Positions 679 to 28,437 of a DNA stretch of 37,020 bases are shown in pieces (within the stretch, counting starts at the first letter, position 1; each line of letters begins with the position of its first letter). The position numbers and the translations under genes were made by a program. The notes under the pieces were generated by a model, which was not told the origin of the DNA, did no database searches, and saw only the letters and a program-made list of their open reading frames with translations. This DNA is from Bacteroidia bacterium (GTDB lineage: Bacteria > Bacteroidota > Bacteroidia > Flavobacteriales_E > Vicingaceae). The stretch lies in NCBI GenBank assembly GCA_030426475.1, contig JAUHYR010000021.1:1-37020 (forward strand), in the 5' to 3' direction.

Positions 679-1179
679 CTAATGTGGAAGAGTATGCCAA
701 AGACTATCAGGCTTACCAAGATATATGTTCAAGTCTTTATTTTCAGATTTATTAATCACCCTACAATTAAACTTTAAATAAGAGACCAGTGAAGATAACT
801 CATCTCCATTGTTTTTCACAATAACATATATACTAGAATCATTCTCATTTTGTAATCAAAGACTATATGATTTAAACAAATTTCTCATACTATAAAATGA
901 GAACTCAATAGTATCAGAAACTACTGAGTAGTATAATACTCTGTTTGAGTTGCTTGTGAAGTTTATCTCTGGGTCTTTAGGTATATACTCAACTACAGTA
1001 TATGAGTATTTTTCTAAAAATATTTTATTACTATCACTATTAGACATTCTAACCTCTGAATTATTGTACAATGTATCAATGTTAATTGGGATAGGCTCTT
1101 CCATTTTTGTAGTATTTTCTTCAGAAGTACATCCAATAAATAAAAGTAGAATCAAATAAATAAAGTTTACGGATTTCAT
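679..1179 (-). pseudogene. Small lipoprotein gene interrupted by one in-frame TGA
   Basis: The ORF starts at ATG 1179 with a lipoprotein signal (MKSVNFIYLILLLFIGC, lipobox FIGC, cysteine at residue 17) and stops at TGA 858-856 after 107 residues. Reading on in the same frame gives 58 more sense codons to TAG at 681-679. The downstream part has ordinary protein character (NENDSSIYVIVKNNGDELSS, later NKDLNIYLGKPDSLWHTLPH). The full product would be about 166 residues. One base change at the TGA (for example from CGA, GGA or TGG) would restore the whole frame. This looks like a recent nonsense mutation, although readthrough or a base-call error is possible. No function is recognised. Array A lies upstream of it. 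Confidence 0.6.
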
Positions 1180-1247
1180 AATATATTACTCTTTTCCAGT
1201 TTTAACAAAATACTACCCCACCATCTAACGCAAGTTTTAGTAAAAAT

Positions 1248-1541
1248 AACAATAAATGGGTTTGGTTTTCACTAAATATGTTCAAGCTCCTACTTATTTT
1301 GTTGGAAGCGCTACTTATTTGCTAGCCTTTTTAACTTATTTTCTAGCCTCTTTTACTTCTGAGCTAGCCTTGGCAAGAAATTAACTAGCCTTTTTAACCT
1401 CAGAACTAGGAAATCCAACTTATTTTCTTGCTCTTTCAACTTATTAACTAGCTTTTCTTACTTATTTGCTAGCCTTGCCAAGAAATTAAGTTCGCTTGCG
1501 AAGTAAATAGCTCGGACAACGAGCTTCATAAGTGAAAATGA
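1248..1541 (-). repeat. Array A: 14 degenerate tandem units of exactly 21 bp
   Basis: Cutting the plus strand every 21 bases from 1248 gives 14 units in strict register with no indel. Each fits roughly (C/T)(A/T)ACTTATTTnCTAGCCTTTT. Column 3 is A in 12 of 14 units and column 13 is T in 13 of 14. A CTAGC core is present in six units. All plus-strand frames across it contain stops or lack starts, so it is not coding. On the minus strand some units read GCAAATAAGT, the core shared with array B (exact at 1313-1322 and 1460-1469). The array ends at the base next to the stop codon of the LOG gene, so it would form the 3' untranslated end of that operon. The last units also hold two hairpins (1491-1502 and 1509-1525). 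Confidence 0.85.
1509..1525. terminator. Hairpin just after the LOG gene stop; possible 3' end structure
   Basis: AGCTCG-GACAA-CGAGCT is a perfect 6-bp stem with a 5-base loop, about 17 bases after the stop of the minus-strand operon. A second small stem (TTCGC-TT-GCGAA, 1491-1502) follows. No strong T run follows on the minus strand, so intrinsic terminator function is doubtful; it may only be an RNA-stabilising structure. Confidence 0.35.
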
Positions 1542-2261
1542 CTAGAAGTTTGGCTTGAGTGTGTACTTTTTGTAGAACTCGTCAATGATTTGTACGGCTT
1601 CATCGGCTGTTTCTACAAGCCTAAACAAGTTTAAATCTTCAGGTGAAATGTTATTTTCTGCTTCTAACAACTGTTTTTTTACCCAGTCAAACAATCCTTC
1701 CCAGTAAGCTTTCCCCATAAGTATAATAGGAAACTTACCTATCTTTTTGGTTTGGATAAGGGTAATGGCTTCAAACAATTCATCTAAGGTTCCAAAGCCT
1801 CCGGGCAAAATGATAAAGCCCTGTGAGTACTTCATAAACATTACCTTTCTTACAAAGAAATAATCTAGTGAAAGTAGCTTATCAGAATCGATATACTCAT
1901 TGGCTCGTTGCTCAAAAGGCAGGTCAATGTTAATTCCTACCGATTTTCCTTTTCCTTCGTACGCACCTTTGTTCCCTGCTTCCATAATACCGGGCCCACC
2001 ACCGGTAATTACTCCATAGCCGTGCTGAGTAAGTTTATGACCTATCTCCACTGCTAGTTGGTAGTATTTATTGTCGGGCTTAGTACGTGCCGAACCAAAA
2101 ATAGAAACGCATGGTCCGATTCTGGAAAGCTTTTCAAAGCCTTCTACCATCTCACTCATCATTTTAAAAACCGCCCAGGAATCATTGGCTTTTATCTCGT
2201 TCCATTCTTTGTTTTCAAACTTGTCTCTAATTCTGTCTTCTTCGTTATCCATTGAGCTCAT
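1542..2261 (-). CDS. LOG-family protein (TIGR00730, Rossmann nucleotide hydrolase)
   Basis: This 239-residue protein carries the defining PGGFGTLDE motif (residues 153-161) and the GGGPGIMEAGNKGA nucleotide-binding stretch (88-101). LOG proteins release a free base from nucleoside 5'-monophosphates (cytokinin riboside monophosphate in plants). The bacterial substrate is usually unknown, so a precise reaction should not be assumed. It is soluble and has a 50-residue charged N-terminal lead, as in longer TIGR00730 members. The ATG at 2261 overlaps the uvrA stop by 17 bases; an in-frame ATG three codons later (2252) is an alternative. It is the last gene of the long minus-strand run and ends directly against array A. 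Confidence 0.9.
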   Translation of the reverse strand: MSSMDNEEDRIRDKFENKEWNEIKANDSWAVFKMMSEMVEGFEKLSRIGPCVSIFGSARTKPDNKYYQLAVEIGHKLTQHGYGVITGGGPGIMEAGNKGAYEGKGKSVGINIDLPFEQRANEYIDSDKLLSLDYFFVRKVMFMKYSQGFIILPGGFGTLDELFEAITLIQTKKIGKFPIILMGKAYWEGLFDWVKKQLLEAENNISPEDLNLFRLVETADEAVQIIDEFYKKYTLKPNF

Positions 2262-20257: not shown

Positions 20258-20306
20258 AGCATTTCCTTTTATCGTTTCTTCTCATACTTCTATTATCCTA
20301 AGTATG

Positions 20307-20621
20307 ACGAACTATAATTAAAGATTCACCAACTTGTTACAAAGATTTACGAACCTCTATCTAAGATTTGGGTTCATCAATCTAAGTTTTACGTTCCTGA
20401 ATTCGAGATTTACGTTCATGAATTCGAGATTCAGGTTCATGAGAAGAACAAATACGTTCCTATTTCTTAAATTCAAGTACCTGAGAAGAGCAAATAAGTT
20501 CCTGTTTGTTACAAATAGGTTCCTTTTTGTTGCAATTAAGTACCTAAAACCTTTGCCGAAGTACTTGTTTGTTGCAAATAGGTACGTAATTATGTCAGAA
20601 AACCACCTATTTGGGCTAAAT
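20307..20621 (+). repeat. Array B: 15 degenerate tandem units of exactly 21 bp
   Basis: Cutting every 21 bases from 20307 to 20621 gives 15 in-register units with no indel. Typical units begin A(C/A/G)GTTC and end (G)AGATTT or ACAAAT. Column 6 is C in all 15 units and column 3 is G in 13. Units at 20391-20411 and 20412-20432 differ at only two positions. The segment 20490-20499 reads GCAAATAAGT, shared with the minus strand of array A. Because 21 is a multiple of three, the array leaves long open frames on both strands (about 20334-20657 plus, 20357-20644 minus); I do not consider these real genes. A weaker unit may precede at 20286. Confidence 0.9.
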
Positions 20622-20775
20622 GCTGTAAAAAAAACCTTAAACACACTGCCAAAATGACAAAATTGGCTAATTATAAGGAGTTGTAGCAGTAATTTGATTT
20701 ATTCGTATTTTTACTTCAATAAATCGCTAATAAAAGTTTATTTATGAAATAGTTAGCATAATTAAAACACATTAA
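20622..20775. other. Leader of the RelA/SpoT-type gene; no clear element
   Basis: This AT-rich spacer has a possible TATTTTTA box near 20708, with TTG about 22 bases upstream, but the match is poor. No hairpin or second gene is seen. Confidence 0.3.
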
Positions 20776-28176: not shown

Positions 28177-28437
28177 TTATGCTGCTACTTGTTCTTTAGC
28201 CTTTTCTACTTTTTCTTTGGCTTTTTCTACTTCTCGTTTTGCTTGATCTACTTTATTTTCAGCCATTTTTTTTCCTTTTTCTACTAGGTCTCCCAAAGTA
28301 TCTTTGGCTGAATCGTATTTCTCTTTAATTTTTTCTCTAGTTTCTTTCCCTGAAGCGGGAGCAAATAATAGAGCTGTGACCGCACCTACAGTGGCACCTG
28401 CTAGCGCAGCGACCATAATTTTTGTTGAATTTTCCAT
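28177..28437 (-). CDS. YtxH-family stress protein
   Basis: The 86-residue product has the YtxH pattern: an N-terminal glycine/alanine-rich membrane helix (MVAALAGATVGAVTALLFAP), then ASGKETREKIKEK and a long charged coiled coil of Lys/Glu repeats. YtxH proteins are general stress proteins in Bacillus and many other phyla; the mechanism is unknown. It is the second gene of an operon with a sigma-54-type promoter. Confidence 0.9.
   Translation of the reverse strand: MENSTKIMVAALAGATVGAVTALLFAPASGKETREKIKEKYDSAKDTLGDLVEKGKKMAENKVDQAKREVEKAKEKVEKAKEQVAA

Follow-up and report, generated by a model that had tools for sequence, protein, structure and literature searches.

In a bacterium of the phylum Bacteroidota, a noncoding tract beside a LOG-family gene repeats every 21 bp, and the question it raises is how the length of its units could have been kept so strictly while their sequence drifted. 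The first-pass annotation of this DNA had favored selection on spacing, with every unit presenting the same face of the helix to a protein, and had also considered a transcribed 3′ element. Here, the window is the whole stretch of DNA analyzed, 37,020 nucleotides, which is contig C26 of a 2.87-Mb genome in 139 contigs (assembly 97.7% complete). Our scan began with 1.03 Mb of this genome and went on to another 0.33 Mb, some of it in targeted stretches; L101, L245, L250 and L256-L259 were chosen for holding matches, and array density is best taken from the remainder.

The array beside the LOG gene and its second copy

The array, hereafter A, sits between the minus-strand LOG-family gene and a 107-aa ORF (Table 1). 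Its self-identity at a lag of 21 reaches 0.53, whereas across lags 15-30 none of 1000 dinucleotide shuffles exceeded 0.39, and Tandem Repeats Finder (TRF) called it at 1313-1476 with a period of 21 and 0% indels, which bears out the periodicity first read from the letters. Of the original description of fourteen 21-base units without an indel, the period and the lack of indels hold, as does the T found at column 13 in 13 of the 14 listed units, but the clear units are only about ten. Those from 1290 to 1499 match the consensus at 10-19 of 21 positions, whereas the outer four (1248, 1269, 1500 and 1521) match at 5, 8, 8 and 8, which is about chance, and for this reason the clear core is placed at about 1290-1499; a smoothed score stretches it to 1513. 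Further internal similarities occur at lags of 105 and 126. The array had also been said to start at the base after the LOG stop codon: the block as a whole does lie near that stop (1542-1544), but the clear units start about 40 nt beyond it.

Table 1. Features in the window, and contigs carrying each array family.
Feature	Position in window, or contigs	Strand	Basis or remark
Array A block, 299 bp, noncoding	1239..1537	(-), relative to the preceding LOG gene	comparison with second copy
Array A clear core, ten 21-bp units, consensus CAACTTATTnnCTAGCCTTTn	1290..1499	(.)	
Array A "leader" side, non-periodic, common to second copy	1239..1289	(.)	
Array A "tail" adjoining the LOG stop, weakly periodic or non-periodic	1500..1537	(.)	
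LOG / TIGR00730-family Rossmann-fold gene, directly upstream of block	1542..2261	(-)	PF03641 1.1e-33, TIGR00730 2.1e-44
107 aa ORF, opposite side of array A block	856..1179	(-)	no family match
Array B (C26 copy), noncoding, 21-bp period	20300..20590	(+)	differs in sequence from A, around GATTTACGTTCATGAATTCGA
Array family A	C26, C47		
Array family B	C26, C36, C100, C117		
Array family C	C5, C41, C46, C122		
Array family D	C16, C89		
Array family E	C15, C32		
Array family F	C15		

Copies elsewhere in the genome had been looked to as support, and one was found: the block of array A recurs once, at G000:C47:13507-13805, where it begins 10 nt past the stop of a formiminotransferase-cyclodeaminase gene. 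The two copies are 89% identical over 299 columns, with 33 substitutions and no gap, and their similarity ends abruptly on both sides, in flanks that are unrelated. They have the same orientation relative to the upstream gene, and both start within ~10 nt of its stop codon; an array of about 300 bp can be present in full a second time, at a different intergenic location. A 42-bp profile of the A units matches only these two copies, the best other match having E=0.007 on C2.

A 21-bp register common to unrelated arrays

The noncoding arrays found in this genome number at least 15 and fall into five clusters of unrelated sequence (A, B, C, D and E/F), and in essentially all of them the period is 21, 42 or 63. 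With TRF left free to pick any period of at least 9, and noncoding calls of at least 56 bp counted, 13 of the 14 calls in 1.36 Mb had one of these three periods, or 12 of 13 once a probable coding array at 28185-28253 is set aside; some true arrays were scored as coding, since periodicity makes it easy for a reading frame to stay open. The sole noncoding array of this sample with another period (L100:11964-12033) was called at 10/30 bp and repeats about 10 bp (CCGCATCnnn). Within the window, A is accompanied by a second noncoding 21-bp array, B, flanked by a Maf gene and a RelA/SpoT-domain gene, and by the coding-type array just mentioned, whose 21-bp periodicity lies within a probable short coding gene, heptad and coiled-coil-like, that the ORF filter scored as noncoding.

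When unit profiles were compared in all rotations and on both strands, relatedness showed up among the three unit types of B, among the C units and between E and F, and nowhere else; a weak match of E with D (p=0.013 among 45 pairs) was not counted, and descent of all clusters from a common consensus ancestor was not detectable by this comparison. Unrelated families have one exact 21-bp register in common, and single arrays bear multi-unit similarities at multiples of 21. The higher-order periods of 42 and 63 bp called by TRF, together with the lags of 105 and 126 in A, indicate block duplication of whole units. In the C36 array of family B, two different unit types succeed one another in one register, so that sequence can shift along an array while the register is kept, and one type can grade into another.

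Some observations concern the surroundings of particular arrays. Three arrays of cluster C lie at contig ends (L066:7642-7872, L121:1-168 and L259:1-420), which suggests that they break the assembly and are undercounted, and the one on C46 (L250:13880-14425) has direct repeats, TAGGAGGAGTACCAAACG, on either side of it, at a distance of about 525 bp from each other. Near three B arrays (window 20640-20662, L245:10395-10412 and L111:11938-11953) there is a similar word, CACTGCCAAAATGACAAA, or its complement, a candidate that could be a conserved regulatory site. Two paralogous 168-aa ORFs on one contig (L087:473-979 and L076:7772-8278), with ~76% DNA identity and no Pfam match, are each followed by an array, E in one case and F in the other, with related unit types; the duplication may have taken in gene and array at once.

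Outside this genome, TRF found no noncoding 21-bp arrays in the 0.75 Mb drawn from 22 further genomes of this family. The array sequence families are likely absent from relatives of the order, as scored on 7 candidates per genome. Relatives do carry intergenic AT-rich arrays, of period 7-8 and not 21 (L266:10204, L280:10903 and 14860). At the LOG loci of about 110 Bacteroidota genomes, array periods are mixed (15, 18, 24, 28, 32 and others); one genome of another family (L052) has a 21-bp array beside LOG, on the side opposite to that of array A, with near-identical units of which one is shortened. Searches of Rfam and of phage, plasmid and viral-contig sequences with array A gave nothing usable, and no description of such arrays was found in the open-access literature searched.

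The claim that sequence drifts while length does not is upheld, both by the same period in unrelated families and by copy pairs that differ in length only by whole 21-bp units. The pairs of A, E, D and the B copies on C117 and C26 add up to 33+35+25+19 = 112 substitutions with no gap, and between the B copies on C100 and C117 there are 39 substitutions and a single gap, exactly 21 long. The small gaps between the B copies on C117 and C36 and on C100 and C26 either reflect how the alignment was chosen or fall outside the array (in BLAST the latter pair aligned without a length difference), and the cluster-C pair on C122 and C41 is so short and divergent that its substitutions and gaps could not be counted cleanly. 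Between the A copies, substitutions favor variable columns beyond uniform mutation (P=0.025), and novel column states number 3 versus 9.3 expected (P=0.005), most changes being swaps of states already in the column. Substitutions avoid conserved columns in A, D and B (P mostly 0.015-0.05, and 0.18 in one comparison), with no such avoidance in E. Exchange between units and purifying selection would both fit the column pattern of A, D and B.

A proposed inherited register and its alternatives

We give about an even chance to the reading in which these are lineage-specific, dispersed, satellite-like noncoding intergenic arrays with an inherited 21-bp register, whole-unit turnover, exchange between units and occasional block copying. 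In-register slippage or unequal exchange would make arrays grow and shrink by whole units only, conversion may swap short stretches between units, and recombination may occasionally copy blocks into new intergenic places, the period being presumably inherited while the sequence drifts past recognition. The arrays would probably lack a specific function, and non-unit indels would be kept out by the rapid turnover of broken units or by a bound factor, either of which would suffice. On this view, array A would lie behind the LOG stop because landing there is tolerated, and would not be an element specific to LOG. Three considerations weigh against this satellite-like inheritance: under pure neutrality, ~150 substitutions should be accompanied by some non-unit indels, purifying selection also explains the avoided conserved columns (in A, D and B; not in E), and independent seeds would not be expected to have one period in common.

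Its main rival, which we hold to be unlikely, is a phased binding array in which a nucleoid or regulatory protein occupies each 21-bp unit from the same side of the helix, with selection acting on the spacing. Since 21 bp is two turns of B-DNA, unit length agrees with this proposal, as do the absence of non-unit indels in four copy pairs and the sparing of conserved columns in A, D and B; the dyad-symmetric consensus of E, F, D and B would suit a dimeric binder. However, the clusters are unrelated, so that one sequence-specific protein cannot read them all, dyad symmetry is not significant in A and C, and the neighboring genes are of no common type. The 10.5-bp harmonic of A+T dominates only in E and F, on which account we rejected a common curvature or shared A+T phasing, and the helix-face claim of the first-pass annotation is not borne out for the set. 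Nor do the data single out selection on spacing, given that whole-unit turnover from an inherited register would produce an equal pattern. Rather doubtful, too, is the idea of a 21-bp ruler in this lineage, whether a protein or a duplication machine, that would make or keep two-helical-turn noncoding units of any sequence.

We consider it improbable that the arrays are transposon-like elements with an internal minisatellite and a transposase encoded elsewhere, after the manner of BrickBuilt, a dispersed intergenic 23-nt tandem array of Bacteroidota (PMC4596501). The A block is indeed discrete, has a non-periodic leader and tail, and occupies two intergenic sites unrelated to each other, oriented alike with respect to the gene upstream. 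Against such an origin, there are just two A copies in the genome, the other clusters differ in sequence, so that one transposase would not recognize common ends, and the ends of A and E have neither terminal inverted repeats (the longest shared word is 3-6 nt, the same as at random places) nor a convincing target duplication, the flank words being short and different between copies. No match to the Y1 (RAYT) transposase PF01797 was found in this genome, at 97.7% completeness, while 20 of the 26 genomes searched were positive, and none was found to Cas1 (PF01867); both were rejected as movers of the arrays. A CRISPR or casposon array was likewise rejected, as there is no Cas1 match in the genome and the units abut without spacers.

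An RNA element, forming the transcribed 3′ end of the LOG message and stopping or stabilizing the transcript through serial hairpins, appears very unlikely. Each A copy comes after a stop codon, the orientation being the same in both, and several of the other arrays are close to a 3′ end, but the suggested 3′ element is unlikely as a general role, because the flanking genes share no function that we could find across the arrays and two B arrays lie between divergent ORFs. Folding energy in A is below that of column-shuffled controls (z about -3), but the energies, mildly low in A, B, D, E and F, are about equal on both strands, and cluster C has no excess stability. Covariation is absent in the window copy of A, where the best stem is paired at 0.56 versus 0.60 expected from permuted columns, and no Rfam match exceeds the gathering cutoff. 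A terminator-like hairpin in the tail of A (1525-1509, minus strand) is altered in the C47 copy. Compensatory pairing in the units of D, E and F, striking by eye, failed permutation tests.

That the arrays are decayed protein-coding heptad repeats (7 codons being 21 bp) can practically be dismissed: the genome does hold coding 21-bp arrays, such as the probable coiled-coil one in the window, but array A, as its first description held, is noncoding, with 3 to 12 stops in each of the six frames, and its consensus includes CTAG, which reads as a stop on either strand and persists in most units of the two copies.

Comparison with known systems

The usual assumption is that a bacterial tandem array takes its period from its seed, and in bacterial VNTR or minisatellite loci, which are made of noncoding tandem units and change by whole units, the period normally varies by locus. 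The arrays described here are likewise noncoding, and two of the B copies differ by one whole unit, but practically all of the arrays have one period. A single two-helical-turn period across unrelated noncoding arrays, with whole-unit differences between copies, suggests either a length ruler or a register inherited as in satellite DNA, something seldom sought in bacteria. Eukaryotic satellite DNA that has higher-order repeats shows unit-level turnover of the kind proposed here, multi-unit periods (42 and 63 here) and sequence drift under a kept period, although our arrays are tiny, of about 10-20 units, and lie in a bacterial chromosome. REP/BIME elements with RAYT transposases are also short intergenic repeats (20-40 bp), partly palindromic and often near 3′ ends, as are the present ones; these differ in their strict tandem register, in having no single conserved palindrome, and in that no Y1/RAYT gene was found here.

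The closest described element to the 21-bp arrays is BrickBuilt, a minisatellite-MITE of Porphyromonas gingivalis that consists of one sequence family with inverted-repeat ends (PMC4596501). Unlike BrickBuilt, the present set comprises several unrelated families with only the period of 21 in common, and no inverted ends were found. In both cases the elements belong to Bacteroidota and are dispersed and intergenic, with short units (23 nt in BrickBuilt) arranged head to tail without spacers between a leader and a tail (PMC4596501). The 21-bp units of array A, arranged head to tail beyond chance, fall within the 10-60 bp that define a minisatellite, and the arrays occur as the dispersed intergenic copies that characterize a MITE.
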